From the NCBI GenBank assembly GCA_030141605.1, contig JAQGDQ010000523.1, positions 1 through 64,000 on the forward strand: a stretch of DNA of 64,000 nt, read 5' to 3'. The stretch comes from Tubiluchus corallicola. Its lineage: Eukaryota; Priapulida; Priapulimorpha; Priapulimorphida; Tubiluchidae. A program made the position numbers and the translations under genes. The notes beneath the pieces were generated by a model. The model was not told the origin of the DNA, did not search any database, and was given only the letters and a program-made list of their open reading frames with translations. Positions 21,801 through 56,800 of the stretch are shown piece by piece. The first letter of the stretch is position 1. Every line of letters begins with the position of its first letter.

Positions 21801-21870
21801 GTAGCTTACTTACATATTACCGTCACTTATTAGTTGCTGAAGTTTGATCTGATATAACAATTTTAACAGT

Positions 21871-22022
21871 TATTAAAGTATATAATTTATATCTATTACT
21901 ATTTGACTTGTTTACAATGAAGCTTAGTAATGCTTTCAAGTATTCTTATTAAAGTATATAATTTATATCTATTACTATTTGACTTGTTTACAATGAAGCT
22001 TAGTAATGCTTTCAAGTATTCT
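21871..22022. repeat. Perfect 76-bp tandem duplication
   Basis: Bases 21,871-21,946 are repeated exactly at 21,947-22,022. No mismatch was seen, so the duplication is recent or an assembly artefact. Confidence 0.95.
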
Positions 22023-27200: not shown

Positions 27201-30200
27201 AAGAGCAGCCTCTGTATGCAATAAGATAGCATGTAAAAATTTCTAGGCGAAAACCAACTTCTTCGCGAAGAAATGAAGCAACTGACCTCGCACGAATTTT
27301 TGTAATTTTAGTGGTAATAATCAGATTTCAGCAGTTTTTTCATTTTGTTTACTAATTCACTTACATAAATTAGTATTCTTAAATAACAATTACACATAGG
27401 AATTTTGACTTTAATTCCTTTCTGAAATTCATTTAAAGCCTTTGTAATGCATACTAAGGTGATGAGTCATGACTTGTCTATTAAACGGCGCCTAGTGTAT
27501 TTCAATTCATTAATTTCAACTATATTGTTTCAATTTCAAGTACCTCCGTGGTTCAGACGGGTATGAGGAATGTCCGATTCTCTGTCAGCATTTGCGTTCT
27601 TTATTGCTTGATAATGTTCAGCTGGACTGATGTTGCCATGAGATTGTGACGCATCCATGCGAGATTCTTTACCTAAACATCGATGTTAACAGTGTCAAAA
27701 ATGAAGTTTAGAAACTTTTTCTTAAATTCTCTTAAAATTTGTTCTACTCGGCAATAAGTTTTTTAGTTATACCATACACAGCTTGCAAATAAAACAAGAT
27801 GGAACTTACTAAAAGGTACACCTGAAAAAGCAACTCATAGTCGGGGGCAGACTGGCTTCAACAAGGCACCCATGGGGAACAGAAGGCCCCTGGGAGATTC
27901 AAAACGTTCAGACTGGGGAGGGTCAAGATTCTTTTGTTTTTAGGCATAATTGAAGAATTACTGAATATAATCTTTTCTAGTGTCTATTCTTTCCCCCATA
28001 CTGACGAGAAGCATCAACCAAATTCAGGCAGATACATGTGGTCATGCCCCATTTTCAGATGGAAAACTTTCGCTCCAAAAATGCATCAAAATCAATAGAT
28101 TTGCACTTTTTATATGTCCACAGCTTTAGCAAAACTGATCTGTGCATAGGACTTTTATGTTCAAAATGATTTAATTCATTTTAAAACCAGTACATACTAA
28201 GACGTAAACACATATGCCTGCCATACATTGTAATTTCCAGCATAAATAATGCGCTTAAACACGTTCGGAATTTTTTGGCTACCTGTGAAAACATGCCAAA
28301 GGCCCCAAAATTTAAAAGGCCTGTGGGCCCCTGACACACGGGTTTAATAGTCAGTTCAGGCTTGCTGATAATTACCTATAGTGCAGATAAAAAAAGCACA
28401 TGAAAAACACAGAAAAAAGATCATATGTGACGTGACTAACAGGCACTTTTATAATTTGGATAGTTGCAGAGCTTATTCACAGACAATAAAACACTCAAAT
28501 AAAGAATATAGTTGACATAATCACTACATAATATTAAATAAGAAAATAAAGTAGAAAGCTATAACATACATAACATACAAAACAAAAGTTGTAAAGAATG
28601 TATACAAAAGCTTCTATCTGCTAAAAGCAGCAGTCAAATATTCAACAAAAACACTAAAAGAAAAAAATCCACAATTAAGAAATGTAGAGAAACACAATGT
28701 TTCAAACTACTGCTGTAACTTACCTTCATGTGAAAACATAAAAGAGAAAAGGGAGTTTCCTTATATCACGAACGCATAAAGATATCACTCTTCAAAATGA
28801 CACAATCACAACACAAACGCACAGCTAATAACAAACACAATGGGAAAAACACAGGAGTATAAAATCACTGACACCAGAGTCACAGACTATTTTCAGGTAT
28901 CTCACTCTAAGGTTGAGTGTACACAGTCTACACACAGCAAATAAAAAGCATATCGGAAACACAGGAGTATAAAATCCCTGGCAACAAACACAGAACCTTA
29001 GAGTAGGTCTCAATGGAAAAGTTCTGTGACTGTGGCCAGTAATTTTGTTGTGTTTGTTATTTGTTGTGTGTAGACTGTGTTTTTTTCTATGTGACAATAT
29101 TTTTAACACGATACCTTTATGCATTAATAATATAAAAAATCCGCCACTTTTAGTATTAGTGATGTCACGTGATCTTTTTTGTTTCTTATTCTTTTAACTG
29201 AAGATAAAGTACAGCGGTGTTGTGAAACGTTGTTTTTTCTCGTTTTTTAACTGCAGGACATTTTTCACTAACTGTCATTGTTTTTAACATGAAGAATGAA
29301 ATTTGTATTGTTAACAATAACTACATTACTGAAAACAACTTGCTTTTATTAACAATTGTGAAACAATAATAGTGGACTCAACTCACTGCCAGCCAGTCAG
29401 GCTGTAACAAAAATTTACTGATACAAAGCAGTGTTAATATAAAATGACAGAATAATAACTACGAGAAAATATGCCAAGTACGTAATGTAACTTTCGCAAT
29501 TTTTATTTCAAGTCTACTTCAGTTACTTTTTGCTCCAGGACTGTAAATGAGTGATGAGACAACTGAAAAAAAATTTCACAAAAACAATAAAACCATGTTG
29601 TCATTTCACTACATCGTTCATGTTTTTTCATTATTTATAAAAAAGTTTTAGTAAAAGTTACCAGGATGGTCAGCAGCAGGTTGGGTTGGTCCTTTTTTGC
29701 CAGTGTGAGTTTTTATAATGTCGGAACTAATTTTGCTGGTTTGATGCTGTTGTGGTGTGCCTTCCTCCTAAAATTTAAATGTGAACTAAGTGGTGTTCCC
29801 CTTGTCATCAAGCGACAATGAAAAAGAAAATTTGCACATCGTACTGTGCCATATTGACAATTCTTTTGCGTGTTAAAATTATATATAAATTCAGTTAAAA
29901 TAATAAGCCTTTTCACAGCTTCGCTGGATGCACGCACAGTTGTTGTAAGTCAAAGGTTAAGTGTACCAAAGCAATGCATTCTAACTACAACAGTCAAGTG
30001 ACATGTGGGTAAGGCAAAGCCATCTGCCACATCAGTTCAGTAACTTCAGTTGTTTTACATGGACTTTACTTAATTATGCATTAGTCTGTGTGTAGAGTGA
30101 TTTACTAGCAGGATCTTGCTTGGGAACAAGAAAATATGAATTAGGCAAGGTTTTAGCTAGCTGCCGAAACTGTTACGATTACAATAGCATGGGCTGCAAG

Positions 30201-33200
30201 GCATTGCCAAGTGCACACAAATGCGTTGTCTGGTACACTTAACCTCTGACTTTCACGAAATCTTGCCATCAATCGCTGGAATTGTGAAAAAGCTTATTCC
30301 GTCAGCCCAATGACAAAGAAATCAGTCAATTATAAAATAAAAAAGCATCAGTTTCTTAGTGCTCAATTATTTTCTCTATTGAAAATTTACATAAATTTTT
30401 AATTGAACAGACACAACTAAAAATATCTTTATAGTTTCACAGGAATAAAATAAAAATTACCTGTTCTTTCTGTGCATAGTTTTTCCAATTAGTATCTCCT
30501 GAAACTCCAGAGTTGGAACTGTAATACTTGTCATATTCTCCACTATAGTAATCTGTTCCACTTGGACCATATCTAAAATATATGCAGCTAATACAACTTA
30601 AGGAAAACACACAAGTTTATTTATATTTGGTGATGCCTAGCAAACCATACTCTGAATCTTTTGCTATGCAACATTTTTCAACATGCACAAAACAACATGT
30701 AATAGGCATAATGTTTATTTGACAAACATTAGAGCAAACCTGGACCCAATCTTAAACTGTAGGTCAAAACAATCTACTCTTTAAAACATTGAAAGGAAAC
30801 ATACCATTTTTTAAAAATGACTTACATGAAAGCATTATTGCCACACAAACACAATTTCACATTCGCGCCACTAGTTCTTCACTGTTATGTGCATTTCGCC
30901 ATTCGCTAGCTAGACGGGCAGTGCCGCCTGCATTTCAGAAACGCATTGCACAAAAACAGGTGCTGTAAGTTCAGATGCGTTAGTTTGTGACGAACTACAG
31001 ACGTTCGACAGCTCATGCGCGAACACAGCAGTAAATTTGAAATTCTATCTTAAAACTTGCCTAGTTTTTGTACAAACAATGAATACCTTACAGTACCACT
31101 GTACTTCAATTTCCGCTTTCGCAAAAACGTGGAATATTTTTGCTGCTGAAAATTATGTTAGTTTGTGATCTCATCAATAGCTGTGCTCGCCTGCCGTTAA
31201 TTAAGTTTTTAATCTATTATTTAATTATCAGAAACGCTTTTGCAGTATTATTGGTATAAAATGTATACTTTTTATCAGAATTGAACATATGAAAAATTAT
31301 CCTGTATAAGCTAAACTGCACACATATTATATCTATAAATAAATCTATACTTAACACATATAAAATCTATCTTGACAAGGTTATTAAGTTGAGAAATTAG
31401 CTTCTATAAAAACGTGTTATTAGTGCCTAATATACCAAAATGCCCTTGATATGCCCTTACCTATAAAGTTGAATGTGAGCAAAATGGAAAAAGCAAAGTA
31501 ATACTGAAAAACATATAATTTAAAATATGCTTTTTAATACCTGTTTACCGGCGGATATGAAGGCACACCTTTATCTGCATAAGTGCCTGCAAAAGACTGC
31601 TTGTTGATTTCCGCAGATGGCACCACTGGTTCTGGACGAGGATAATCATACTTTGTTCCATACTTATTCGGATAACTATAGCCTTGAGCAATGTTACCCA
31701 AGTATGACCCATCATATGGTGATTGCACGTCGCCATAACGGCCAACATTCGCGGAATACGGATTCAAAGCATAACTATCTTGATAAGCGTTCTTGAAACT
31801 AGTGTCATATAGATTGCTGCCCAAGTAACTTGGGTCATAAGGATATGCATCACCATAAAATGGCTGCTGATTTGTACTATCAAGTGATTGCTCTACAAAA
31901 AGAAAACACATCAAATTAGTGCTTCTTACGTGCAATAAAATGATGGCACGTCTTACTCAAATTGGATGATCGTGGTAAGACCAGAACCCGACTTATTCTC
32001 AAGCTATGATTTTAAGAGGAGCCACTGGATCACCAGAGGTATCTTAAAATTGTTTGGATGTGTTTACATCCTCCATCTACAAGGTAAACAGTCACAATCA
32101 TACGACAAATGAAACCGCTCAAAAGTGCAAGAATAGGGACGACTCACCCATTCCACTCACTGACAAGTCTAGTGCCATTCTTAACTTTGGACACCGTGAC
32201 CCATGAGACATGCGCCTTGTCTCAAAGACTTTTACAACACCCATTTGGGACAAAAAGCAGTGTGCAAACCCCACCAGATGAACAAAAATGCCAACAGATA
32301 CAGCTATAACTAGTGAGTCACTTGTAAAAATGTAATCATGTGTATTCACACATTTGCTTTTCTAATTTAACCTTTCACACTGACTAGCCATTGGTCATAT
32401 TTTGACCAGTTTGCACAAGAAAGACATGTAAATGAAATGCATCATCTTCAGAATCTCACAAAAACTGATTATTACCGTGGTAGTGATCACTGACACCTGG
32501 ACAACCCGTTTCATCGCTTTGATCATCACAGTGGGAAACTCCGTCACACACATCATATATAGCAATGCATTTTGTGTTTCCTGTTTCACAAGTAAACTGA
32601 AACTTTCCACAACCTAAAAATAAGTTAATACTAAGTACTACAAAAATTTTACTAGACATCAAAATAACAATGTTTGCATTGCCATAAAGAGAAAAAGAGA
32701 ACAAGGAAGAGGTAAGAAGATGAGAAACAGACAGAAACGAGAAAGGAGGAGAGAGAAAGACAGAGGTATTAACTCTCTCACCTCTATTAGGTTCAGAAGC
32801 AGCAGCAGTAGTTGATGGTTCTTTGGTTGTAAGTTTTGGTGTTGTTGTTGGTACTGAAGTGGTAGTAGTAGTGGTGGTACTAGGTGTTGTTGTTGTAGTT
32901 GTTGTGGTCGTTGTTGTCGTCGTTGATGTGGAAGTGGGCACATCATTTATCAATAGCTGTAAATCTTTTTCATGTTTGGAATCAGCCTGCAATGATTGCA
33001 AAACAAAGGGGCAATTAATTGCTACAACTTTCATTCTTTGTTTGATCACGAGTGATGTTCAATGAATAGTATACTATAAAGCACACACTTACATACATAA
33101 ACAAATATGTAAGACCAGCAACATAAAAGTAGTACTCACACGACATAGAACCACTGATCTAGATTCAGAACCAATACCTTAAGTTTATCCAGGCTGTATT

Positions 33201-34311
33201 CATGAGCACTGATCTTCCTGTTCATGACGACATAATGAGGGTGCGGAGTAAATTTACACTTATTGGGAATTCCACAGTCAAACAAGTAACAGCTAGACTT
33301 GTTCTGAAAAAAAAGTTTGAATTTTCAGTGTTGCAAACTGGTGCTACCATAGCTTTCATGGATTAGACTAACCAAATATGTAACCGCAGAACAGGAATAA
33401 ACTATTTAAGGACCAAAGTGTCAGAACATTGTACAGCAATCATTGGTCAAATCAGAATTAAAAACAAAAACTAGGCAGATGGACATGAAGTGCTCCTAAC
33501 ATGTACAGTATAAAAGCTTAACAAATCATCTTTTCTCTCTTATAAAACACAAACGATGATATTAAATTAGATTATATGCTAATGAATTTAGAAGAACTCC
33601 ATTCAAGCAGCAAATTATTATTATCAAACAGGCAAGAAACCGAAGAAAGTAATAAAATGTTCATTTGCACACCAGAAATTCAACTCAGAGCCGCAGCATT
33701 TACAACAACATTTTGGAAAGAGTTAACACGAGAACAAAGTATATACGATTAGGTTTTCTGCCCCAATTTTAGTGAACCAGTTTTAATGTATGTTGCTTTT
33801 AAATAGTAATGTTAATTTTAATGTTCACACTGTTTTTTATGTGCTATGTAGGAAATAAACTAACGAATGCTTTTGGGGAGACAGTAAAAATGATCACTCT
33901 TGATTAAACTTTTCAATCATTGTCCTTAATTAAAAACCTAGAAGTCAAAAATAGTCATACTCGGTCTTCATAGACAGCAAGGTTGCACCTTTCTGTTTCG
34001 CAGCAGACCAGCATACATTCTTCAGTTGACTTTGCTGCAGGTGCAGTAAGAAACTCGGCTCCATTTTCACGGGAATCATAAGTTCGGATGATGGTATCTT
34101 CTTCTAAGGAAAATTCTGGCATGCAGTGAGTTAACTCGTAACCAGTAGCAGTTTGGTCGTCTCCGCCGTCGGCATCTACATCAGTACTCCCCCCATCATT
34201 ATATCTTTCCCTATCTTTTGATTTGTGATGTTTCGCACTGTTGACCAAACACAATGCAGTAAAGAAAGCAAACAACACGTAAATAGACCTCAAGCGCACT
34301 GCAGTAATCAT
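24232..34311 (-). CDS. LRP11: LRP11-like receptor: MANSC + LDLa single-pass membrane protein
   Basis: Ten exons join in phase on the complement: 34311-33961, 33303-33178, 32986-32782, 32613-32476, 31892-31541, 30572-30461, 29767-29662, 27672-27544, 26339-26098 and 24624-24232 (717 aa). A signal peptide ('YVLFAFFTALCLVNSA') precedes a MANSC domain with eight Cys over exons 1-2 ('CMLVCCETERCNLAVYEDR', 'SCYLFDCG'). Exon 3 is a Thr-rich, mucin-like linker. Exon 4 is one LDLa repeat with six Cys and the Ca-binding 'CDGVSHCDDQSDETGC'. Exons 5-9 encode a long Tyr/Asn/Gln/Pro-rich stalk without a known domain. Exon 10 has a TM helix at about residues 667-688 and a short basic tail ending 'DADYLINGMYL'. 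MANSC+LDLa+TM is the LRP11 architecture, but vertebrate LRP11 has a PKD domain that I do not see here. HAI-1 is excluded because no Kunitz domains are present. Confidence 0.85.
27842..28368. mobile_element. Possible decayed hAT-like MITE
   Basis: An intronic block begins 'cgggggcagactggct' and ends in a GGCCCCTG-rich segment with 'gtcagttcaggcttgct'. The ends are weakly inverted, and GGCCC motifs near both ends recall the 'ggcagactgg' families of non-autonomous hAT elements. No clear target duplication was found. Confidence 0.3.
28921..29080. repeat. Inverted repeat with 24-base arms
   Basis: Bases 28,921-28,944 ('acacagtctacacacagcaa...') pair with 29,057-29,080 with one mismatch. Just left of and inside it, the motif 'cacaggagtataaaatc' occurs twice as a direct repeat (near 28,852 and 28,959), so the region has been rearranged. 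It lies in the intron between exons 7 and 8 of the LRP11-like gene. Confidence 0.8.
30733..31306 (-). repeat. Dispersed repeat, copy B (uninterrupted)
   Basis: This is the reverse-orientation relative of 15,949-17,045, diverged by scattered substitutions and small indels. It carries the unoccupied TA at 30,823-30,824 where copy A has the MITE. It lies in the intron between exons 5 and 6 of the LRP11-like gene. Confidence 0.85.
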
Positions 34312-34801
34312 TTGTTGATAATGCAGCTCAACCAGATCTTTAACAAATGCAATTAGATAAAATAAATTTAACAAAATATTACATATTTCCTACGAGCAGA
34401 AACAAAATACAGTAAAATACATTGGCTTTATTCGCATGCGCACAAACACTGTTCCGGCAATTTATTTAGAAAAAAATAAACCTTTCACAAATAAAATGTA
34501 GATACTTGTAATTAGTACTTTAACTTGCAACATAGCTTGTAAAACTAATCATGTTCTTAAATTACGAAATAAAGATTACGCGTTTTGGGTTAACAAATTA
34601 TTCGCTAATTTATCAAAAAATAGTCCAGAGAAGCATCCGCGTGTAGAACTGCTTCCGGTCGCTGCTGTTGTGTTGTGCTGTACGATCATACAGTGTACGT
34701 TGTGGGCAGTGAAAAGTTGAAAAGTTAATGGGAAATGTGAGAAAAGTCTGGTTCAAGGCGTGATCGTGGCAGATTTTTATTAGAACTTGAATCGTGGAAT
34801 T
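34312..34801. promoter_or_regulatory. Bidirectional promoter between the LRP11-like and PPP1R14 genes
   Basis: Only 490 bases separate the two divergent start codons, so both promoters and 5' UTRs must fit here unless distant non-coding exons exist. There is no TATA box in a convincing place. An NRF-1-like palindrome 'cgcatgcgca' lies at 34,433-34,442 and an ETS-like 'cttccgg' near 34,652. Both are typical of TATA-less bidirectional promoters in animals. Confidence 0.6.
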
Positions 34802-37800
34802 ATGGAAACACAGCCTACAGGTTACACAACTACAAAAAACACTGACTTACATGTAAAGTTTCAACACAAGGAAGAAATCGTTGAAAGAAAAAAGAAATAT
34901 CTGACTGCAAAGTATGGACAACATCAAATGGCTCTGATCAGGAAAAGGTTGGCCGTAGAAACCTGGCTTTTCGATAATTTACAAGATCTATATACAAATG
35001 ACTCCGCTCAGGTGAGAACCCAATACGTGTGTTTACTGTACTAGGTGACTGCATTGTCAAAGTGATTTTCCCTGACATTGACGTTATACTTTCTTGCTTG
35101 CTTGGGAAGTCTAAGAGACCTAACCATAACACGGCTATTGACGGTCTCTCCTCAACAATTTGCGAAATAGCGGCAGATTTGATGCGTAAACTGTTTCACT
35201 ATTAAGTGAATTCCAAGGGCCCACAACACAAGAAGAGAAGAAATGAGCTCTGATATTAGTGCGAGAGTATTGTACAAATATTTTAGAATTGTGTCCACGT
35301 AAATCAAGTAGTGGTCTGCAAAAAAATTTGTCACTACGCAAAATAGAACTATCACTAGTAACAGTTAATAAGTTCTATTAGTATCACGGGGTTGTTCAAG
35401 AGAAAATTCAGAGTCAGGTTGAATATCAGAGACCAGACTAATACACCTTCGATTAGGGTTCTTTCTAAAGCATTTTTAAGAGTACCATACTGTGGTGACC
35501 AAACAACGCATCCATATTCAAGTATTGGTCTAACTACAGCTTTATAAAGAGGTACAATATCTTTTGCATTACGTGATGAAATACAGCATTTTATCATTCC
35601 AATGCTGAGAAATAATATGCTCTACATGTAATTTCCACTTCATGTTGTTTATGATTAACACACCCAAATTAACATGATGCTTATCTGCCAGCTGAGCTAA
35701 GCAAACTAGGCAATGCCGTATCTTGCAAAACAAGATAAAAAGGTTTAAGGCATAACCAACAAAATTTATAAATGAACTTAAAAATGTAAAAAAAATCATA
35801 TCTTATATAATTATACAGGAAAATTAATTAGGCAAACATTTTAATGTAGCTGCACTTGAACAGGTTCTGTGTAAGTTTATAAAAATATGAATTAGCTGCC
35901 TGTGGAAGGCTGATTTTCCAGAAACTTTTGGCTCCCTGCATTGAGCCCAATTCTATGACATGTCAGGGGAAATCTAGCTAGTCATGCTATTAACTAAAGT
36001 TTGACTCAATCACTTAATATTACTATAACACTTAGTATGAAATTTGCCAACTTTAATATAATTAGTATACATTGGCTTGACATAGGATTTCTAAGTTGTG
36101 TTCCTAGTGTGATACTATTCACCTGTCTAATCTTCCATGCAGATTCTTGATGTACATTAGAAAAGAAACAAAAAAGCATGTTTGTTTTCCCGAGACAGTA
36201 TGCTTTAGTTAATTGATTCGCCTTGGTACAAGTGTTAAGTGAATTTATTAAGCAGCTAGATTTATAAATTGAAAGGAGTATTGGTAGGTTCATCATCCAC
36301 TGATTTCCTGTTATTGCCTGTTACCGAATCAGCTTTTTTAACGACGTTATAAATGTCGAGGTAGTGCATACCATTCACCACAAGTGTAATCAATTTGACT
36401 GGCTGAGCCAATTGCTGGTGCAATTAGGAACACAGTGAAAACTGTGTGTAGTGATAATTTGTAGTAGGCCTATTTAAATCTACAGTATAATAATAATACT
36501 GTAATCATATATACCAATCTTAATCGTCTGTAAATGCATCATTTACGTAATTTGCTGGCAGCTAGATAGAAATGTTTAATGCATCCGGTAACCTGTTTGT
36601 TTAACTTGCATTATACAGGTGTAACTTTAATAGTGTCAAACACTGCTGTTACCTCATTCTATATGCTTATGATATGCTGTGTAATGCCTCTATTTATAAG
36701 ACCTGGAGCAAAGTACACCCTTGCTTTTATTTATAGTCTGCCAGGTTATTAACACTTGCCCTAAGTTTCTTATAAAATGTAATATGTCGGGCAAAGTTTT
36801 TTTTAAATTACAAACAAAACAGCAAACTTGATTGACATTAAACCAAATACTAGATTATTTTGTATTTGTCTGTTTCTGCAGCAGCACTCAGCATCCAAGA
36901 TATCTGCCTGATATTAACAATTATCCTCATGTTCACTTTTACTGCAACTGCACGCTTTGTACAGCATGCTTTAACATAAGTCATCTAATAATTTCAGATA
37001 ATTAATTTGATAGTCATTACTTAGGGTTGGATTAGCTGACTCTTGGACTTTGGAAATCTAATTAGTAACATAGCTTCTAGCAAAACAAAGTAATCAAAAA
37101 TGTTTACTTGTTTTTAATTAAGGCCCAAGAACTCTTGTTTCTGAGCTCACGGTAAGTGTGCTATACACATCTGTAGTCTCCTAGTGCTGTGTTGTTCTGT
37201 TCTTTTGCCACTTTGCTGCCTTAAGTCCTGCATTATATTTTATCTAAAATGCATTGTTTGTGAATGTGCTTGCCTGCCAAAGCATTATTTGTGGCCTTAC
37301 ATCGTGAATATACTTTCACAAAATACAGATTGAAGATTTTGTGACCATAAACATGGGTATGTTCACAACATAAGTGCTATTCGAAGTAAGTTTATGTTAC
37401 TCATTTAATACTGACGCAAGCTGACTATGCTACTGTGATAACTGGTTAATTTTCCTGGCATTTGATTTGACTCAAGGGCAGCGTAATTAGTTTATTTAAT
37501 GGCTAGATAAAAACCTGTTCAGCTGCATTGTCAGTCAGCAAGAAAGAGTTAAACAACGTTTCAGTGGTTTGCGAGATGAGAAGATTATAACCAGTAGTTT
37601 GTAAACTTGTAATTATTTATGACTAAAATCAAATTTTAACTTTTACCTTCTATACTTGCAATTGCATTTAATTTAACTATTTACCTCTATAGATGTAATT
37701 AACTAGATTGAGTGGTCCACTTGTATATTTGATTTTAGAAACATATTTTTCTAAAACATAACAATAACAATGAAATACGCTGATATTTTTATTCTGCAGA

Positions 37801-40800
37801 TTATACATATTTTGGTGTTAGTAATAAATACACAGTTAAAGGCCTGTAAATACCACACTTGCAGAAAACTTGACGCTGTTTTGGTCAGTTACTCGGACTG
37901 CTGATCTGGGCAGCATCAGCATCCGGTTATTAGATTTAGATTATATCCAGTTGCAATCTGTCGAAATAGATCTGTACTGAGGAAATTGCAAACACTTGTT
38001 AAATGCAGTGTATAGATCACTTTAGTTTAACATTATAAAAATAATATTTGTCTGGTCCAAAACTTCAGATTGAAATCCTAGATAAAAACAAGTAACTTTC
38101 AATGCACGAAAAAGAAATTGCCAAATGCTTACAGCCTAATTTTTTGTCTTGTTTATGTTTGAATTTTGAAACTTGTGAATGCTCATTCCATTTGATGGTA
38201 CCTTTGGTTATACACTTGTTTAATCTTAGTAACCAAGTTTGTTATCATCGTTGTCATCATCATCGTCATCATCACCACAGTCAGCACACCTTACAACAGC
38301 AACCCCACGATATGGGTGACCATAGTATCCGCCATAGTTACCATATCCTCTCAAACCACCATAGCCGGTACCATATCCGGCCCCGTATCCAGCGCCATAT
38401 CCAGCGCCATGTCCCAAACCACCATATCTGTATCCTAAACCACCAAGTCTGGCACCAACAACTCTAGCAGCACCAGCATCGATGACTGCACCTGCACCTG
38501 CACCAGCATCGATGACTGCACCTGCACCAGCACCGATGAATGCATCTGCGCCACCATCTACGGCAACACCATTACCGACTGGAGTTTCAACAGTAGCTGG
38601 ACCAGGGGCCACTGCTGCTGGTTGTATGCTGACAGCTTGGATTCCACTGTATCCAACTGGTCTGGCAAAACTGTAAGCAGCTCCAGCAGATCCTGCTCCT
38701 TGACTGATGGCAGTTTGGGTGAAGCTGGCTTGGGCTTCCTGTTGTGCAGTTCTGTCTGCTTGACGAGCAGATGCAGCAACACCTGAACCAGAGGCAGCAC
38801 GATCAGCAGAAGCAGCTTGCCATTGGCGTGCGAATCCTGCACCCCACTGACGACCGATGACAGCACTTTCTCTCGCTGGAGCACTGCCAGCTGGTGCTTG
38901 AGCTGCAGCTTTTGCTTTAGCTCCGGCAAAGTTAAAGTTGCCATTTCCAACAAATTCGTTGCTGCCTTCAAAAGAATTTTGAAGACCGATGTTAGGTCCA
39001 TGGCTAGTGTAAGTACCGAATCCTACATTACCAACAGCTCCACGTGCAGCAAAAACGCGTCCATCATGAATTGCAGCTCCATATCTGAGGTATGGGCGAC
39101 CAACATGGCCATACCCCAAACGGTGTCCATAGCCTAAGCGCCCGCCCAGACCATAATAACCAAGTCCACGGTGTCCGAGGTGACCACGATATCCAAGTCC
39201 ACGTCCATAACCGTATCTGCCATATCCAAGACCACGTCCGTAACCATATCCAAGACCACGTCCGTAACCATATCCGAGACCACGTCCGTAACCATATCCA
39301 AGACCACGTCCGTAACCATATCCGAGACCACGTCCATAACCACCATATCCCAGACCATGGCCATATCCTAAACCACGGTGTCCGCCATAAGAACCACCAT
39401 AGCTAAGAAACATTTTAATAGCAAGTTTAGATTACTTATAATTATACAACTTAAGGTATGTTTATAACTGTCTGTGATAATTACATAGGAGTAAGTATAT
39501 AATGCTACATTTTGTTAACAACGTAGTACTCAAAAATGTTCAGTACAAGTTATTCTCTATCTACATGCTTCATTAAGTTTTTAATTAAGAAATTTAGTAA
39601 CATTATAATACCAAGCCAAGGTAATTACATAACCTATGGAACACTTATTTCTGCCATAAATAATTGTGTCACCTCATGTTTTACTAACAACATAGTAAAA
39701 ATAAGACTTTAAACGTGGTTTTCGCAACATTTTTCGATATTCGTCATTAAATTTCGCTGATTTCAAGCTTACAGCGGTGCTTAATTTTTGGTTTGATTTA
39801 AGTCTTAAATCAGAAAAGCATTTAACAGTACTGTGCTAGAAATTGGAAAACTGTATAGAAGCACTGCATTGAGCTCTGAGGTATAGCATTTATAAAACAC
39901 AATAAACAGATACTCACCCATCTCCATATACATTGCGAAGATACGCACTTCCGCCAAAAACACTAGCAGCCTGTGTGAATAAGAAACAAAGGTAATCAGG
40001 GGAACTTAGAAAGAGCATTTACAATTGTATATTCAACATTGCATAAACACTACAAAAAGGAGCAACAAAAAACATTAACCAGAAATGCAGATCAGGTTTT
40101 GGTTAATTTGTACCTGGGTTTGTAAACACAAAACCAGGTTTAAAGCAGAAGAAAGCCTTTGACTTACATCAAGCTTAAAAAATTCGTCTTGAAATTTTAT
40201 GCCACTTACGTACTGCCTTTTTGCATGCAGGACTTGCATTGGCAGTAACGCTATATAAAACGTAAATTTAAACTCCAGCGATAACCGTTAGATGCAGCCA
40301 TTTTGATGATAAGTCATTTGAAAGAAGTTTAGATAACGCTGAGTAAAGTTTGAAAAAATAATTCGTAGCGCACAACTAAGTAAAATTTTAAATTACTACA
40401 TCTTGTCAATAAGATTAAAATACGTTTTTGGTTAGTGAGCGGTGCACCCTGGAGGGTGAGTCAGCGACATTTTACCAATTGGTGAAAGCATTTTAAATAA
40501 TTAATTTAATAATTTTCTTTTTTAGTTACATAAGTCTTTCAAGCAGGAAAGCGAAATGCTAGGTAACATCATTTTTGGGACATAGTTAAACGTTTCCTTT
40601 TCTTCGCCTGATTTACGTTGTGCGTATATGACGTCATGTAATTGCGCGGTCGGTACAATGTCGCGGGAAGCTTAAAATGAAAACAAACAAAAAATCATTT
40701 CAACGCGAGTACGATGTGCGCATAAAATTGCTATAAAGTAATGTAATTTTTCGAGGCGATTTTTCTGAAACCTACTTCAGGTCCCCCTTCTACTTGTCCT

Positions 40801-43800
40801 TCACATAATGGCATTAGGCAATTATTAGAATTTGCAGATCAAGCTCAGGTTGTGACTCTATATAGTTTTCTACAACGGTTTTTAAAAGAGAAACCAATGT
40901 TAGAACACACTGTTCATGTGGTTTTTAAGGTCAAGTAACTAGAAATACACTTACACAGCCCAGCAGTAGAAGAGTGACCAAAGAATTCATGATGACCTGT
41001 AAGTTAAAATATAAGCGCTGTTTACAAATACAATCACTGAATTATTTCATGGAATCAAAAACAATGTACGATTCCCCCATTGGTTAGCAAGAGACCATGA
41101 TATGTAAAAAAGCTAGCAAATTCTTTACTTCGCAAACAACTTGTTAGATATGAAGTTAACTTAAATAACAAGAATATTTCTTACTTTTCATTGTACGTAC
41201 TATATGAGATTTGCTATGATACGGTAGGAAACAAAAAACGTATGATGCCATTCTCAAAGTCTCAACACTTTTTTTTCGATTCATAATTAGAAAATAAATT
41301 ATAATTAATTGATTTCTGCCATTTCTTCAGTTAAAGTTAGAAAAAATAATATTATAAAAAATTATGCGTTTGCAATTCGATTTAGAAAAGTTGGTATTTT
41401 GCAGACAGTTAATTTTAAACATAAAAATGGGATTAAGCATGCAAAGAGAATACTGTTATTTTAATTTTTAAAAACATTTATTGTGTTTTAATTTCATTTG
41501 ATTATTTTAATACCTGCGAAGAGTTTCTCACAAATTTTAAAGACTCGTTTAATAATGAGTGTATCTTGTTTTTTTCAATGATTTTTGTTGAAATTTGAGT
41601 TTAAAGCTAATTACGTGCAAGTAGAAAACTTACCTGTAAACGATTAGCTCCCGGACCGCAACAGCTAAAGTAATCTGCAAGTGCTGACGATTGCTCCCCG
41701 CCCTGGCTGTTTTATACCTACCGTCCTCCGCAACGACCTAGTTGTTCGATGTTCTTTTTTGTGAAAAGTAGATAATTTTTACGTTTGTCATTTGTCAGCT
41801 GGGTCGCAGTTTGTCATCTTGACGACGCTGCGTCCTTGGCGAATTGAATGAAAACGTGTCCGACTGCATGGCCTACCTTGCCCCAAGTAGGTGTTCTTTC
41901 TCTTGTTTGGTATGGTCGAATAACGTGATCTCCTGAACTTTTTGCGTATGTCACAGAAGAGAATAGCACCTAATATGCAAATGTCCCATAAATGTGTTGG
42001 GTTAAAGAAAGTAACTTATATTTTTATGCTTGAAATTGTCAAAGGTCGAGCATTGTCATGTTTGCAAGCACCGATTCCTGCCAAATTTATAGCAAATATT
42101 CGAATCTGACTCTCGTAGTACCTGTCCATTTTAAAAGTTTTTTTCATTTTTGAGATTACAATAGCAATGAATCTAGAATACAATTTCCAGTATACCCTTC
42201 CCCTTATGGAAGCTTAGACAATGCCTTGCTTTGGTACGAAGTAAATTGGCTTTTTGCAAATAAAATTGTTTAACAGCTCCCACGCCACTAAAGTCAACCT
42301 TGAGAGTTCTTAACCTTTGTGGAAATTACACTATGTGCTTCTTCAAAGCATCTCCTTGAACGTTAAACGCTAATAAATCAGTCTAACTCTGCGAGCTAAT
42401 GAGAAGAAATTTTCTTTTTTAGCGGTGAAAGGTGCTGCTGGCTTATTTCACGAATCTGCCTATTTTAATTCTCTGGCGACAGATCTCAATCACAAAACGT
42501 ATTTTTATTAAACTTATTCACATACAGTTTTTTGTACAACAGAAATTTGTGAGAAATATATGTATTTACATTTATGTGTATAAAATTTTTATTTTTTGAG
42601 CTTGGAAATTAAAAAGAAATAGTGAAATAACGCAGTAGGATTTTTAACACCAGTATCATTCTCTAGCACAAATTATTAATCACTTTCAAATTTCAATAAA
42701 CTTTATGTCATCAGTTTTACTTTTGTATTATAAATTTGCATTATTTTGTTTGATTTTTGTACATTTTGCTAGTTTCCTAGCTAGAATACGTCCATACGCT
42801 TCTAATTTTACGCGCCTATACACGTAATTGAAACCCTATTTTTCTAGTATTTTTGAACTGACTATGTAATAAATAATAAGCGTCCTGTTTCCTTAGTCTT
42901 GTTTGGAAGTAATGAACTTAATTTCAACTCTCTGTTTGAAAGATCATATTAGAGCATAATTGCCGCTCTGAAACTGGTTATTACCCAATTTTCGTTTATT
43001 GTACCAGTAGTTTCGATACTGTAACATTTGCAAGAACGTGAAATGTGCCGTAATGATCGTGTAATAGCTCAATTTAAAAATGTCGATGCACTGCGTAGTG
43101 TACACGGTCTATTGATTTAGTGATCAGCTTTAAAATAGTATTTGTTTGTTTCATGGACACCTTCTTTTTTAAATATAGAACTGTTGTATCATAAAGTTTA
43201 ACGCACAACTGACGCCTTTGTTTGAAAAGTATTTACTGAGAGCCTTTGTTTGCAATTTTAAACTGCAGGCGTTGTATTGATCAGAAAACAAAAAGAGGCA
43301 TAATATTTACAGGAGTCAGTGTTTTGGCATCAAGTTGAAGTTAATTTGAATTTAGTAAAGTGAAACAGAAAACAAAAAGAGGCATAATATTTACAGGAGT
43401 CAGTGTTTTGGCATCAAGTTGAAGTTAATTTGAATTTAGTAAAGTGAAACATTACATGAAGTGAACAAATATTCACATTCAATTTTACAATCATTGGAAA
43501 AACATAGAAGTTCGCGAACTCATTCAAAAAAGCATAATATTGTAAAAATAGATACAGATGAACGTTGAACTTGAGTATTTTAGCGTGTAGCACTCATCAC
43601 ACATTTCTGTCATTGTACTATTGAAATATTCCTACTAGATTAATATCGATCTTCGTGTGATTCTTACTTCTTAGAGCTTTATTTCAGTAAAATACACATA
43701 ATTTACGTGCTTCGCTGTGGAATACTGATATCACAGATACAATATTTGATTCTCATGTCTTTTAGCTTTAATGCTTGTATCTTTTATAATATTTGATTTT

Positions 43801-46800
43801 TTAAGTCTTATAGCTTTATGTTTTGTATCTTTTCTCTGAATTAATGTCTTATAAATAATGTTTCTTGATTCGATTTGCAACAGCGTCATTCCATGTATAC
43901 TGAAAAAACGGTGACTGGTAATAAAGTCATCGAAAAGAAATCACAATTTTAGCTACGAAAAAAGTCACAGGGAAAAGCACAATTAATTTGTGGTGGCCGG
44001 AAAAGCCAAAATGTTGGCTAGGAAGGAAAGTCTGGTAATGAAACAAAAAAAATATTCAAGTCATTTAAGTGCCATAAACAATTAAAGTAATAAATGTATT
44101 GCCTAATATGTAATATTAGGCCTTTACCTAATTGTAATAAAACAGAAAATATTTTAAATCAGTTTTTCACAGGCAATACGTAACTTGTAGATATTGACAG
44201 CACTATTTATATATGGTGGCATTACATACATGTAAAAAGTCACATTTTGTTAAGTATCTTAAGGTTAGGATTATTTCTTGTTCCTGTGATTTTTTTAAGG
44301 TTGACTTTTTTACTTGGATTCGAAAAAACATTCCTGATTTTCCAATTTGAAGTTTAGAACAATTCATGTGTTTTGTCTAGGAAATTAAAAATCTAAAAAC
44401 GCGAAGAGTCATAACGGGAGACAAAGAAATCTGCAGCGCATTATGTACTGCGGAAGATTTTTATAAACGTAATTTTTGGAGGCTCATTAAATTAAATTGT
44501 CTGTGTTAGCATTTTCCCATGAGAACATTTCAAACACTCGTTCTTGCCTCTGTTATTAATTTCCATTCAATCTTCTAGTGAAAACACTTTAATTTCGCCC
44601 TCCCTTCAAATGCTAAACATTGTGCGTTACGTAAATGAGAAAATGACTGAGAAGAGATAAGCAACCTTGCCTGAACATGCGACTTAAATATTTCTTAGAG
44701 CTCATTACTGGGCGCTTGTCAAGTTTTTGCGTCGAGTTTCGTCGTCCTTGAAATCATTTTCGGCAGCTGTTGGCAAAGTTAAAAAGCTAAGAAAGAAAGA
44801 AACGTTGCAGAGCTAGTGGGAAAGGATTACCAAACAGTGCCTGGGAAAGGGTTCACCATTAAATCTCAACTGTGGCTGCATGTAAATAGGATAATGACCG
44901 AAGAATATAACGCAAGAAGAAAAAATATTATCTGTTTGATGTACCAGTCATCAGTTGATTGCATTTATCTGTTTATTTACACTTTTGTTATTACCTTTGC
45001 CAAGACGGTTATATTTTCATCGCCTATGATTTATTAATTAGTTGGCAAAATTATCCAAAAACTACTTTACCGATTATCGTGAAACGTTCTGAGGTGAGGT
45101 ATAAAGAATATCGCTTTCAATTTTGACAATTACTGACAAGAATTACGAAATAAAATCAATTTTTATTGATAAACTGTTGGCTTATATGCCTAACGTCGTA
45201 ATAAGCCACTGTAGAGAAATATCAGATGACGTCAAAACAGTGTACAATGTGTGACGTCGTAACAATTGTGTACAATGTGTGACGTCGTTACCTAAGCGGC
45301 ACACTGTTGTGTAGTTTTACTAGTTTAGTAATAATTATAGTCCACAAGTTTTGGCGGATGTCTGAACTCTGTTGAGTGACATTCCAGTGTATTTAGCGAA
45401 TTAGCAACGATGACAGTAAAACCTGAACATTTGTAATAAAAAAGCTCTAAACAAAGAATAGCATTAAAAATTTCCCAGTAAGTTAATAAAAAAAAATTAA
45501 AAGTGAACAGTTAGAGTGGAAGAGGTGTGCGTGGTGCTGTTGAGCTTTGGTCCTCTTGCCCTCAAGCAGTAATGGGAAAGCTTTGTTTGACAGGAAGTGC
45601 TGTTGATAGGAAAATCATTGTTGGGTTATTGATGAGCAACTCCCGTGCATCTTGTTCTGTGATCTGTTGCAGCTGTTGGGTTGGAAAAACTCAACTTGCA
45701 GGCTTGGTTACAGGATTTTTGCCTATTCCAGATGTAGAAATGAACACATGCCATACTTTAACACTATTAAACCCACAATAACAATAATTATTTGATTAGT
45801 GTTAGAACTATTTGATTATTTTTCACAGTGATTGTGACTATTAAATTTTATTCTCATCTTACCATGCATTTTTCAAATGTAATAATTTTGGTATCTCGTT
45901 CAAATAAACGTTCATTATTACCGAATGACGTAAATATTAAAACTGCGTTGATGTGACGTGACGTGTGTAACTCCACTAAAACGGATCTGATTAACTCTGC
46001 TGATATTAGCAACTTTACAGATCCCAAATCCATATGGCCTTAGCTCCATATATAAACAATTGCCTAACATTATATACAGTAACCCCTGCAATTTCTTCAG
46101 TCACCTGAGTTAACGAGTTAAGCTGATTTGCTCATACATGTATCATATTTTAAATCTAAATACATTTTTGTGCTACAAAGTTTTGTCAGTAGTTTGTCTT
46201 GTTCCATTATCAGTATGTCTGACTCTTGAATTTCAGTACCAATCGTTAGCATTAAGTATTGTAATGTTTCTTACAATGAATTATAAAAAAATAAAACTAA
46301 TTTTCCAAGAACCTGTCTTTCAACAAAGCGATTTGTACCATTGACATTATTTGGACAATAATCTGGATTGATGTTCTTTTAAGAAAGGGTATCTGTGAGG
46401 GCAATATTAGTTGGGGTGTCAAATGAAGAGTGCCTGTGCTTAGTTACCATACAAAAAGTGCAGAGCCTACTTCTTGACTGTTTATTTAGTCAATTTAACT
46501 AAAATATCTGAAAGCATAATGCCTGCAGAAAGTAATACTGTATTATTTAATATTTGTAAAGGTGCATTCCTAAACCACTCTTTACAAAGTTCTGTAAACT
46601 TTGTTGAATAGATAATAATCCACCTGGTATAAAATTATAAATTTATGAGTTATATCTCCCTTGCAGGACTCTTCGAGTGGGGACGATATAGAGATAGATT
46701 TGGACAATTTATTAGATTTAGATACAGACTCGGAACGACGGCAGTTTGTAGAGGTATGTCACTATATCAAGTTGCATGAAGTTGAAATCTTGATATTTAC

Positions 46801-48587
46801 CTTGCTAAGCTTTCACTACACTTTTGTTCGTAGATTTTTAAATTAAGTGCTTTTTGAGCAGAATTAAATGTGTGCAGCCGTATCAGGCCTTTTTTCGTAA
46901 ACATTTTAACATTGTCAATGTTTACTAACAGTACTAATATAGTACTGTACACACTGCAGTTCAATTAGGGCTAATACAGACAGTAATAGTTTTGTTATTA
47001 CAAGACAGTAATGTACTTGTGTAGTCCGCCTATCCTGTATTCTTGTTTAAGAGCAATCTTGTTGCTCATTTTACCAGTACAGCAATCCCAGTCCAGCATT
47101 AAAGGTGACAAAACTAGATTAGGTGGTTCCAGAAAACTGTCCAGTTCAGGACAAGAACCTCTCCAGCAATTTACTGATTGCTGACTATTATGTTCCACCA
47201 CACAGTAAAGTTAAGAACTTCTTTTGTTACTGTTACAGTGCAGTTTATCTGTTGGTATGTTTCTATCACGTGTGTATAACGATTACTTAATATTTTTCAG
47301 AATCTTTTGGTAGGCTGTCCTAAATCTAAAGATGTTGTAAATGTAAGTATTTTTCTTCATAATTTTTTCTCATTGCTATTTATTGATACTAATTTACAAT
47401 TAACACCAACAAAAGCACAATACAAATGTAACATAAATTGTATGGATGTGACATGGATTTGCATAAGGGGTGTGCCTGCTCCTGTTGTACGGCTTTGTTA
47501 TTTGACCTGTCGCTGCTCACTTGCACTTAAACATAAATTATTAGCTCATTAAAAGCTTCGTTATTCACAATAATTTACATTGTACACGAACATTTATAAA
47601 CGAACATTTTGTAAGCATTTCTCCTAGTCATTATATAGTGGCTACCGTGATACCACTCCCTGATATGATTTATCCTAGTTTGGCAAACAATGCACATTTT
47701 GTTTATAATATTGCTGGGTGGATCTTGGTCCAGATGGACCTTCAGCATTGTAACCTGTATATATGTGTTTTGTAGCCTGTCACAGTATTGTGAACTGTTT
47801 TAAATTTTGCTGTTGTATAGCTTTTACTCACTTTTCATATTTTTATACATTCTTCAAATAATTCTACTTCCAATGAGGTAAAAACTGTTTGTTCATCTTT
47901 TGTGCTTTATAACGCTCTATAATTTACGATTCAGTTTTGTGTTTGCTCGTCTTGTTACCGTGTAAGTTACTGTAGGTATTGTTCAACTCTGATATTTTAA
48001 TATTTTAGAGGATCCGCTTGTACCATAACCGATCAGCCACATTATGAATTTTGAATAAGATTTATCAGTTTACAATTTTTTCTCATAACTACTGTGTTAA
48101 GCAGAATCTGACTTAACTAAACATCTTCTGCATCAAAACTCAGCAATGAAAAATGTCTCACGATAATTTACAGTGGATTACTAGCCATGGGGAGACAATT
48201 TTTCAGTGACTTGAAATAATATTGTGCTTGTTATTTTTGGTTGAACATTACTGAGAAATAATGTTTGAAACTGTGCCAAGACAAATTCGCTCACTGTCCC
48301 ACTGAAAATACGTATACTGGGGTAGTTCATTAACGTAAAGATAAAATACACGTTTGTGCATACAGATTCCTTTCCGTCTGACTCGTTTGACCAGAATCAT
48401 TTAGGTCAGACTCCTTTAGGTCCTAAATGTAGCTTATGTTTATGTAATATGTAAGAGCCTAAAAGATGACTGATCTTGTCTTTAAGTTGTTTCAAATAAC
48501 AGTTTAGTTGTCTTTTTGTCATCACAAACTATTTTCTCTTTTTAGAATTTCATAGAAAATCTTCTTACCAAAGCAAAGACATTGTAG
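34802..48587 (+). CDS. PPP1R14: PPP1R14 family (PHI-1/CPI-17-like) protein phosphatase 1 inhibitor
   Basis: Four exons join in phase: 34802-35011, 46667-46753, 47301-47342 and 48546-48587, giving 126 aa. The core reads 'KKYLTAKYGQHQMALIRKRL' then 'VETWLFDNLQDLYTN', and the later exons give 'DIEIDLDNLLDLDTDSERRQ', 'NLLVGCPKSKDVVN' and 'NFIENLLTKAKTL'. This is the complete PHIN domain of PP1 inhibitors, with near-normal length for PHI-1. Thr35 in 'LTAKY' aligns with the activating phospho-Thr38 of CPI-17. The Asp that follows the conserved KY in CPI-17 is Gly here. The family controls myosin phosphatase and PP1 when phosphorylated by PKC/ROCK. ATG 34,802 is the first in-frame Met. Intron 1 is 11.6 kb and carries an opposite-strand gene and a LINE fragment. 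Confidence 0.9.
35135..35800 (-). mobile_element. LINE reverse-transcriptase C-terminal fragment, decayed
   Basis: Translated pieces on the minus strand, in order, are 'NLGVLIINNMKWKLHVEHI', 'LYKAVVRPILEYGCVVWSP' and 'HFFSSCVVGPWNSLNSETV'. These are the standard C-terminal segments of CR1/Jockey-like non-LTR RTs. They fall in different frames with internal deletions, so this is a dead copy in PPP1R14 intron 1. Confidence 0.8.
38226..40990 (-). CDS. Secreted repetitive Gly/Tyr-rich protein (shell-matrix-like), nested gene
   Basis: Three coding exons join in phase on the complement: 40990-40955, 39970-39918 and 39402-38226 (421 aa). A signal peptide begins 'MNSLVTLLLLGCAASVFG'. It is followed by tandem GYGRGLGYG units (about residues 45-90), a middle part rich in Ala, Gln, Ser and Arg, an 'AGAGAVIDAGAG' repeat, a second Gly/Tyr block ('GAGYGAGYGAGYGTGYGG') and an acidic end, 'CGDDDDDDDNDDNKLGY'. 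Cys is almost absent outside the signal peptide and 'RCADCG'. Composition and layout resemble extracellular structural proteins such as shematrins (shell matrix) or cuticle, tube or byssus Gly-rich proteins. No catalytic domain is visible. It lies inside intron 1 of PPP1R14 on the opposite strand and has its own non-coding exon and TATA box. The function is inferred from composition only. Confidence 0.8.
41634..41685 (-). other. Non-coding first exon of the Gly/Tyr-rich gene
   Basis: A strong donor, 'tttacag|gtaagt', lies at 41,634/41,633 on the minus strand. Its start, near 41,685, is estimated from the TATA box about 30 bases upstream. It would splice to the acceptor 'aacttacag' just before the ATG at 40,990. 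Confidence 0.6.
41709..41716 (-). promoter_or_regulatory. TATA box of the Gly/Tyr-rich gene
   Basis: TATAAAAC on the minus strand, about 75 bases before the donor of the non-coding exon and just downstream of 'taggta', is the only well-placed TATA box in the window. TATA promoters suit a strongly, tissue-specifically expressed secreted protein. Confidence 0.6.
43282..43449. repeat. Perfect 84-bp tandem duplication
   Basis: Bases 43,282-43,365 are repeated exactly at 43,366-43,449. It lies in PPP1R14 intron 1, upstream of the Gly/Tyr-rich gene's promoter. Confidence 0.95.
45227..45291. repeat. CRE palindrome followed by a 24-base direct repeat containing CRE-like halves
   Basis: A perfect TGACGTCA lies at 45,227-45,234. 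The unit 'gtgtacaatgtgtgacgtcg' then occurs twice, 29 bases apart, each time ending in a TGACGTCG. It lies in PPP1R14 intron 1, about 1.4 kb before exon 2. Confidence 0.6.
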
Positions 48588-53800: not shown

Positions 53801-56800
53801 ATTTGCTAAGAGCATGAAAACATTAGTACCCGATCGAACTGCACTAGACAAATTAGATCAATATGATTTGGTTCCAAATGTTCAGCAGGCAAGAGGTTCG
53901 CTGTATCACCTGATCGTAGTTAATTATTTCAACTAATAACGGCCGTATTAATGAATGCTCTGTAAAAAGAACACGAAATATGCTGCTAAAATATCATTTT
54001 CGTTTAACAAGGCAAATTACCACACTGACGTTATGTTTCCAACATCCAAGAACTGAAATTCTCAAAACACCCAGCAGTGAAACTCGAAGCAAATCACACA
54101 AAAAAACAAGAATTAATTTTTTTAACTTCTTTACCTTCAATTTTCACTTTTGTTTACAAAACTGAAATTGCACCTAGTAAAAAATATGCATTTCTATGGC
54201 CCTATACCTGTATGCAGGGTAACAGAATGCGTACGATGAGTCAGGATAATGTTTTGATTTTAGAATTATTAATTTTATAATGACTACCAGAGCACAATTG
54301 TAAGTTATAACAAAGTTGTAAAGAGCATCGAGATCACTCGTTGTGATGCGCTATATAAATGATAATTTATTATTAGTAGTAACAGTAAAGGCTAAGCAAT
54401 TTCTAAAAATTGGCAAAAATATTTTCTGAAGTTTACAACTAACTATATAAAAAAACAATAATTAGCTTACCTGCTTGGATTTTTCCTGCTTCTGATCTTT
54501 CTTATGAAGCTCTTGATACTTCTTGGCTATACAAAAACAAGTAGAACCATATATATTGCAAGATCAAATGACAACAAAATATTGATCTAAGCGGCTGATG
54601 CAATAGGAGACGTACTTGAAGCAAGTACTCAAAGAGCTACATTTCACTTACTGCAGGAAAATTGCACCACAAATTCATGACGTAGCTAAAACTGAGCTCA
54701 GTATACAAGAGTGCTAAATCAAGATTTCAATTTAAAGATTTGAATTTACCAATAACGCACAAAAATTTTTATTTATTACGTTTCTTCTCAGGTTATAACA
54801 CAAATTTTAAAGAAACACTTCTTACACAAACAACAGATTTTGTTTTTGCATGTCATGATCTTCTGTGTTATAGGTTTTTCAATACGTCAGTGCGCACCCG
54901 TTTCTACAATGACATATACTTTCTATGCATTACTGGCATTTAACATTATACACTGACAAATTTAACAATGTCAAAAACATAGTAAGAAAAGGTACAGAAG
55001 AAAGCTGACTGTATTCTTACCATCAAACTGCTTCATTTTTGTACAAAGGTGTCTTTCGCCAATCACAGTCAAAACCTCAGGCTGATTTATAACAGTAGTG
55101 AACCACCGGGTTACGTTTCCAAAAGGCTCTCGGAAAGAAGGTTCCAGAACGTTTTCGTATAAAATAAGCAGATCGCAAGCCACAGAAATATCAGCCTGTG
55201 AAATACGTTCGCCAACTAAAAATGTTCGTGTCTTGAGGTGAGCATTTAATACTCCTAATGCTTGTTTGATGCGCTCTTTTGCATCCTCGCATGCCTGTTT
55301 AAAACGAAATGAAAGATTTTAACAATAATATAACCCCAGTGGCACAGACCTCAATAATAGCAAAGTACCTGCAAGCATTAAAACAGACAAGGTAAGTAGC
55401 TCATCACAACAGAGGACTGAGCAAATAATCTACTTCAAAAGGAAGTGCAGTTTCGCAATTTAGTTATCCAAGCAGTCCGTCACTTGTAGAATTCCATTTC
55501 CCCATTTCAAATGTCCTTTAAGGTTATTTCATGTTTTGTCTACTCTAAGGATGTTCATCGATGGTCCTAAGCCATGTCAACAAATTGACGTAGCCATGTC
55601 AAGTCGCGTCGACATTTATTGATAATTAAAATAGTCTGCATGTTTAATACGGCAGTGTTTGCAGACCAGCAATAATTTGACCCTCAAATTCTCCGAGCGA
55701 CACTTACGGTATTTGAAGTAAATCATTTTTTCTAACCTAGACATCAGTTTAGCTATTTACTGTGGCATATTGAAATTAAGAAGTATGTTTTGCACTGTAA
55801 CTGCAGAAAGCACAGACATATAAGCTTATTGTGAAGATATTTAAAACATGGTAAAATTAATGGTTTAATTAAATAATCTCTTTAACAGCTAACTATTACT
55901 AAAACCGTGATCAACTTTGCAGTAATAACATAACAGCATTAAGAAAAATCATTGTTCAATTATCAACCAAGTTTGACGTCATTCGTCAAATGAATTACTC
56001 AAGCTTTTGACTGTCATTATATAACCATGCCGCACTACCCACATGATAACTCGTACGCTTCAAACTTACAGACTGATATATAGTCACTGATTTTTAAACA
56101 TGGAAGAATGCTTTAATTGAAATTTTAGCAGTAATTTGAGAACAGACAGTTTTCTTAACCTATTTGTAAAAAAAACTGATCATACTTGCTTATTATACTG
56201 TATAATGCCAAGGCAGGGAAACACCCAAGTGCAGGCTGCCGGCGTAATTTCATTATCACCAAAGCTAATCCACTGTAACACCCGTGCAGCATCTTCGCCA
56301 GTAACGCCTCTTAGCGCAGCATTGCCAACTAAATGCAACCAAATTACATCTTTAAAATATAAAAACCATTCTGAATTGCCTAAAAGCCATACAAATGCAC
56401 AGAACTTCAGATAATGGCTAGTGCAGTAAGTTATTAATGGCTAGTTAACTCAATGATGTCCAATGAACTTTCATTAATGATTATTGTAGGCTACACTATC
56501 TGTTAGCTATCTGTAACTGCTTCATAAATTTCAAAATATTACCATACTTACGAGTCTACACAGTACAGTGAGAATATAACGTACACATACTGTACATAAT
56601 AGTGATGAGACAACGTCATTAGTTAGACAAATGGAGTTAATTTATGATTTTATGCCATTGCTCAATAATGCAAGATTTTCGGGCAAAATTACTAGCGACG
56701 GAATCCTTTGTAATCCAGTTCAACATAAATTAAACCAAACATGGCCAAATTCAAGAACACAAATTAGCCAAAACAAGCCAAATGCATAAAGCGAATTCAA

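Follow-up and report, generated by a model that had tools for sequence, protein, structure and literature searches.

We analysed a stretch of 64,000 nucleotides from contig JAQGDQ010000523.1 of Tubiluchus corallicola (the window, whose positions serve as coordinates throughout) and describe in it a four-exon gene that lies antisense within the first intron of PPP1R14, a gene for a PP1 inhibitor. On the strength of its sequence, we lean towards regarding the product of this nested gene as a secreted, modular, silk-like structural protein and as one member of a large family in this species. What the members share is a conserved core, which in the nested gene is framed by two Gly/Tyr-rich blocks and followed by an acidic end. 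By analogy with known systems, the best reading of the substance that such proteins would build is a chitin-based or mineralised extracellular material.

The core and its paralogues

The protein encoded by exon 4, which holds everything beyond the signal-like N-terminus, was compared with its own genome (an assembly of 343.5 Mb in 2344 contigs, in which the counts of places are lower bounds). It matches at least 29 places, the window included. With the core of a paralogue as the query, at least 37 places are found, all 29 among them, and the window core is matched with an E value of 3.2e-10. At most 34 of these 37 places are distinct, one of them being a fragment of 34 query residues. The sequences were read at 29 places, the window and 28 others, of which 26 in all are distinct, 8 further places of the paralogue-core search being left out. 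In all 29, the core sits in an open frame and is scored at 109 to 210 bits by a core profile, with 130 bits for the window core; 21 of the 29, including the window core, are seed rows of that profile. The match covers most of the exon-4 protein in three paralogues (one on contig C1731, two on C2265), while in the remaining ones it is limited to the core, in some together with the Gly-rich part that precedes it. Since the own-genome search found these paralogues, a reading of the protein as an orphan was dropped.

The alignment of the 26 distinct cores has 164 columns, of which 10 are invariant and 10 nearly so, with a mean column identity of 53%; the window core is 27 to 91% identical to the others. 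One part of the consensus reads NFGNID..AFG..NFG..YI.VE.FDFN.WR..AA..AP and another EQ.VIG.RYRSG.ARQ.E.S...R.GSGSGEAGI.LSA.R.A.QDATQQYTQTASGEG.TEQGAAYGFQR, and TAQQEAQASFTQTAISQGAGSAGAAYSFAR is an example of a tryptic peptide from the core of the window gene. The proportion of non-synonymous differences (pN) is below that of synonymous differences (pS) in every one of the 325 core pairs, several of which are saturated at synonymous sites. The non-synonymous and synonymous rates (dN and dS) are 0.066 and 0.29 between the window core and that of L009, its nearest paralogue, and 0.064 and 1.07 between the two cores on contig C1535. The core is under purifying selection.

In a tree of the 26 cores, the window gene forms a clade with the paralogues L009, L010 and L011 (support 100/99), whose deeper position is unsure because it meets a long branch. 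Between the window gene and L009, 128 of the 142 core residues are identical, without a gap, as against 62 of 113 and 47 of 104 in the two flanks, with 29 and 71 gap columns, a contrast that is to be read as rough only, since low-complexity flanks align poorly. Across the family, each member has flanks of its own, most of them of low complexity: rich in Gly/Tyr, Gly/Ser, Gln (46% in L031), Asn-Gly-Tyr, Asn/Gly, Ser-Tyr-Glu-Pro, Asp or Arg/Asp, and in a few members short or less biased. A preliminary description of this DNA had taken the Ala/Gln/Ser core for a merely compositional region; it is instead the conserved module, and the Gly/Tyr blocks and the poly-Asp tail are the variable part. The same description had proposed a structural protein, which is still the best guess, but its picture of a lone protein does not hold, since the core recurs at about three dozen places of the genome.

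C1535 and C1248 each carry a close pair of family members arranged tail to tail, with slightly less than 3 kb between them (L022; L028/L033). One member is present on C2196, C2262 and C2263 (L015, L016, L017) with identical DNA over at least 6.8 kb, and another on C1545 and C2286 (L018, L019) with 99.97% identity over 6.95 kb; these copies either were made by the assembly or stem from very recent segmental duplication.

Structure of the nested gene and its surroundings

The features of the nested gene, its protein and its host are as follows (a slash in a splice site marks the junction).

41710 to 41716, minus strand: TATA box (TATAAAA), followed by an initiator-like TCAGCA whose A, at 41685, is 31 bases downstream
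41634 to 41685, minus strand: exon 1, non-coding, its 5' end inferred from the TATA box and initiator; donor CAG/GTAAGT
40955 to 40996, minus strand: exon 2, with the ATG at 40990, encoding the signal-like segment MNSLVTLLLLGC
39918 to 39970, minus strand: exon 3, AASVFGGSAYLRNVYGDG, which finishes the signal-like segment
38226 to 39402, minus strand: exon 4, the rest of the protein in an open frame of 401 codons, with the stop codon at 38226-38228
39078 to 39402, minus strand: Gly/Tyr block 1, to residue 138, with GYGYGRGL repeats
38601 to 39026, minus strand: conserved core module of the family, 142 residues (156-297)
38466 to 38573, minus strand: Ala/Gly segment with GAGAVIDA repeats, residues 307-342 (tandem repeats at 38468-38558)
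38307 to 38465, minus strand: Gly/Tyr block 2, residues 343-395, 42% Gly and 21% Tyr
38229 to 38306, minus strand: acidic poly-Asp tail, residues 396-421, 10 of 26 Asp
34802 to 48587, plus strand: host gene PPP1R14, exons 34802-35011, 46667-46753, 47301-47342 and 48546-48587

The spliced frame encodes 421 residues, including 112 Gly, 63 Ala, 40 Tyr and 3 Lys, with an isoelectric point (pI) of 9.3. Residues 25-138 consist of 44% Gly, 21% Tyr and 12% Arg, with a net charge of +13, and the DNA of this first block contains a 24-bp tandem repeat at 39220-39342. Residues 139-306 contain 24% Ala, and the protein ends in DDDDDDDNDDNKLGY.

The proposal that this frame is an artefact or a pseudogene, that is, a frame left open by chance around a GC-rich repeat, would draw on the low-complexity repeats and on two weak splice sites. 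According to a generic splice matrix, the donor of exon 1 ranks first among the 3676 minus-strand GT sites of the window, while donor 2 (TGT/GTAAGT) scores only 4.7 bits and acceptor 3 (TTTCTTAG/C) ranks 1491 of 3426; by eye, the interval from the preceding stop to the repeats contains no alternative AG for acceptor 3. We consider the proposal to have a negligible probability, contradicted as it is by chance tests, by the intact frames of the paralogues and by selection across them. Only one frame of the window is longer than that of exon 4, which spans 401 codons from stop to stop; in 20 first-order Markov resamples of the window, the longest frame had no more than 197 codons. Of 2000 resamples drawn from the region's own composition, none was fully open. 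Among 300 resampled upstream regions, 53 gave some two-intron model and 1 was as good as the real one on splice score alone, but none matched both its score and its N-terminal hydropathy. With a stricter donor cut-off of 6 bits, the real model was missed, because of the score of donor 2, and 17 of 200 resamples yielded a model.

The paralogues speak to the small exons as well. In L010, the sequence MKILILLAC is followed by a phase-0 donor and, past the acceptor, by VVGTFAGF, which is the same intron place as that between exons 2 and 3 of the window gene; the C-AASVFG of the window protein resembles C-AVGVFS in L022 and C-VVGTFAG in L010. No first coding exon was found for L009, in which the stretch just upstream reads N, and no counterpart of the small exons was found for L011. 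In the nested gene, the splice site ahead of the ATG reads TTACAG/GTCATCATG, with a YAG shortly before the ATG, and a YAG no more than 24 nucleotides ahead of the ATG was also seen by eye in all 22 distinct paralogues with a single open reading frame, where about half would be roughly expected by chance. This fits a non-coding first exon in the paralogues like that of the window gene. Judged from these comparisons of sequence, the nested gene is real, and its small exons are further backed by the paralogues, since the L010 intron at the same place supports them independently.

Judged by hydropathy alone (2.64), the N-terminal segment of the window protein resembles those of the 22 single-frame paralogues, every one of which begins with a hydrophobic, signal-like stretch (13 of them, by eye, with the LLxC pattern that the window protein also has). 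A second strongly hydrophobic stretch was not seen by eye in the translation, and from its N-terminus the product would be secreted.

The complete antisense gene with its three junctions, as set out in the preliminary description, is thus borne out by the sequence model, the chance tests and the paralogues together; the secreted look of the N-terminus recurs in the paralogues, and the Gly/Tyr repeat, the second Gly/Tyr block, the Ala/Gln/Ser core region and the poly-Asp end are in the translation as claimed. The TATA box of that description is present, but it is weak evidence for a promoter when taken alone: the combination of TATAWAR and TCAK at a spacing of 26 to 32 bases occurs 3 times per strand of the window.

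The host gene is well defined. Its four exons join in frame to encode 126 residues, of which residues 2-126 match the Pfam family PF05361 (E value 2e-14), and the entire antisense gene lies inside its intron 1 (35012-46666, 11.7 kb). This position antisense within the intron is in keeping with a proposal that the nesting itself matters and that antisense transcription of the nested gene controls PPP1R14. We give this proposal very little credence, because nested genes are common, because this one is a protein-coding gene under selection and because many other places of the genome carry paralogues of it. In Drosophila, about 6% of genes are intronic according to the abstract of PMC3786989, and the nesting is therefore real yet ordinary.

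Among the other features of the window, the frames on the minus strand at 24232-34389 encode a MANEC domain (E value 6e-15), an LDL-receptor class A domain (E value 1.5e-7), a Thr-rich stretch and a C-terminal hydrophobic segment; perhaps they form one membrane protein gene, divergent from PPP1R14. At 413-531 on the plus strand is a 5S rRNA-like sequence whose 105.7 bits exceed the Rfam gathering score, and ARAGORN found no tRNA in the window. An exon at 54971-55318 (minus strand) closely resembles the GST domain of elongation factor 1-gamma (PDB, E value 1.5e-33), and a reverse transcriptase fragment at 60441-61127 (minus strand; PF00078, E value 2.5e-20) probably comes from an element without long terminal repeats (non-LTR). 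Two exact head-to-tail duplications, with 100% matches, are perhaps recent or made by the assembly: 76 bp twice at 21870-22022 and 84 bp twice at 43282-43451.

The plus strand also carries, at 17620-18441, an open frame with Gln/Pro/Gly-rich repeats (QQQGGYVP), GWGWGHGWGWGG, and Asn/Thr-rich and Met/Gly/Asp-rich parts, without the core. The repeats of the nested gene match this frame at 17.6-18.4 kb in tblastn with up to 47% identity and an E value of 4.8e-10, obtained without composition correction; kinship was rejected, the two sharing composition only. A scan of all window frames of at least 40 residues with the core profile matched the nested gene alone.

Searches for relatives and the proposed role

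No described family had been recognised in the protein before, and the searches agree with this. The Pfam search of the window protein returned 0 families. Run on the 26 cores, it returned 6 families, each in a single member and with a best E value of 0.046, as expected from chance. In the PDB, the only hits of the whole protein were to parts of ribosomal protein S10, which aligned with the Gly/Tyr repeats (best E value 0.0019), and the best match of the core profile was eIF2B delta (E value 0.69), both of which were set aside as composition or chance. No relative of the exon-4 protein was found in viral contigs, nor any of the L027 core in prokaryotic genome and viral contigs. Five core peptides had no match in open-access full texts, where four peptides of the Gly/Tyr (GY) repeats were matched only in a paper on a caddisfly genome. 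The core family is apparently undescribed, in the sense that it is absent from Pfam and that the tested core peptides have no match in the open-access texts searched.

Because the core is conserved while the flanks change, we suggest that the core may act as a shared assembly or docking module, which would let different members enter one extracellular material, while the flanks would confer on each protein a property of its own. By analogy with shell proteins, the Gly/Tyr/Arg blocks of the window protein could attach to chitin and to partner proteins and become cross-linked at their tyrosines, and its poly-Asp end could bind calcium or a mineral surface; the protein would then be a linker between an organic scaffold and a mineral or otherwise charged layer. 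Such a role has a parallel in the lysine-rich matrix proteins (KRMPs), for which PMC3120837 proposes that they connect acidic proteins with those of the framework and that their GY domains serve in cross-linking. More tentatively, and with somewhat less than even confidence, we propose that the core is an undescribed assembly module of extracellular structural proteins, present in about three dozen copies. In the course of evolution it would have been combined with varied 'material' segments (Gly/Tyr, poly-Gln-Gly-Tyr, Asn-Gly-Tyr, Ser-Tyr-Glu-Pro, poly-Asp), and the one family would thereby supply graded building proteins for the hard or tough parts of the animal.

Several results weigh against the silk-like structural reading or narrow it. 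In 11 of the 26 distinct members, no 80-residue span reaches 25% Gly, so that the family is not uniformly silk-like and the core, rather than glycine, defines it; the other 15 reach this value in some span. Long acidic tracts were seen by eye in the clade of the window gene (L009, L010, L011) and in L021, not in most other members, and for this reason mineral binding would not be a trait of the family. AlphaFold2 gave no confident model, with a mean predicted local distance difference test (pLDDT) score of 39.9 for the exon-4 protein alone and of 49.0 for the core with its 26 sequences. We therefore use 'module' for a conserved sequence and claim no fold; the core may be disordered, may fold only upon assembly, or may have too few paralogues, at 26, for a model.

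The same family could also serve a non-mineralised material, such as a tube, egg case, chaeta, cuticle, byssus-like thread or gland secretion, in which the poly-Asp end would tune only charge or assembly. This is plausible, although we hold it to be less likely than not: silk-like proteins are found in many such materials, according to PMC4944945, and the scarcity of long acidic tracts among the members points the same way, but the three paralogues closest to the window gene all have acidic tracts too, differing in form and position. A role as glycine-rich secreted defence peptides is highly improbable. An expanded multigene family with signal-like N-termini and basic Gly-rich parts would suit it; these are nevertheless large proteins whose conserved part is a long core and not a short cationic peptide, and no Pfam match was obtained, with no search aimed at antimicrobial families.

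The structural reading matters for more than this one gene. Low-complexity structural proteins are hard to interrelate because their repeats align by composition alone, and the conserved core offers a handle within the genome, with which ordinary homology searches can test what belongs to the family, how old it is and how widely it occurs. Nature has put many different flanks on one core, and these variants amount to a ready-made test of how repeats determine the properties of a material; the core, if it is indeed an assembly module, would be a usable part for designed materials.

Comparison with known systems

Silk-like proteins in the sense of SilkSlider (PMC4944945) resemble the window protein in their signal-like N-terminus (by hydropathy), the lack of a second strongly hydrophobic segment (by eye) and their modular, low-complexity build. 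Besides a signal peptide and the lack of a transmembrane domain, that source asks for at least 25% Gly per 80 residues, a level that the window protein reaches in 164 of 328 spans of 80 residues, with a maximum of 48.75%, when the mature protein is counted from residue 15; by its glycine it falls into this class. The window family differs from them by its long, non-repetitive conserved core and by the 11 members with less glycine. KRMPs resemble the window protein in secretion, which is predicted for the latter, and in a Gly/Tyr region of the chitin-binding kind (PMC4498902). Their lysine-rich basic region is absent from it (3 of 421 residues are Lys), and its charge comes from Arg, much of it inside the GY repeats.

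Compared by description, the window protein is set apart from prismalin-14 by its 421 residues, by two GY blocks around a core and by the lack of PIYR repeats, which are a prismalin feature. It is set apart from the shematrins, likewise by description, by the core, the Ala/Gln/Ser segment and the acidic tail, and it lacks the basic R/K-rich C-terminus ending in Tyr that is typical of shematrins. To our knowledge, the core occurs in neither shematrins nor prismalin-14. The likenesses lie in the Gly/Tyr-rich region and the Asp-rich part of prismalin-14, a protein of the prismatic layer of the pearl oyster that is annotated as GY-rich and D-rich in PMC4660305, and in the basic, Gly-rich tandem repeats with Tyr and the signal-like N-terminus of shematrins and shematrin-like proteins, as described in PMC9210306.

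That the window protein might be a true shell matrix protein of the shematrin or prismalin-14 type, homologous to those of pearl oysters, is suggested by the same make-up of Gly/Tyr repeats, an Asp-rich end and a basic pI. We regard this as improbable, because the likeness is one of composition only and the relatives of the window gene are united by the core. The 'shematrin-like' proteins of the zebra mussel could not be aligned to Pinctada shematrins either (PMC9210306), and the Lottia proteome paper cautions that Gly-rich shell proteins can hardly be proved homologous unless they are also similar outside the repeats (PMC3374290). We file the window gene under neither prismalin-14 nor the shematrins.

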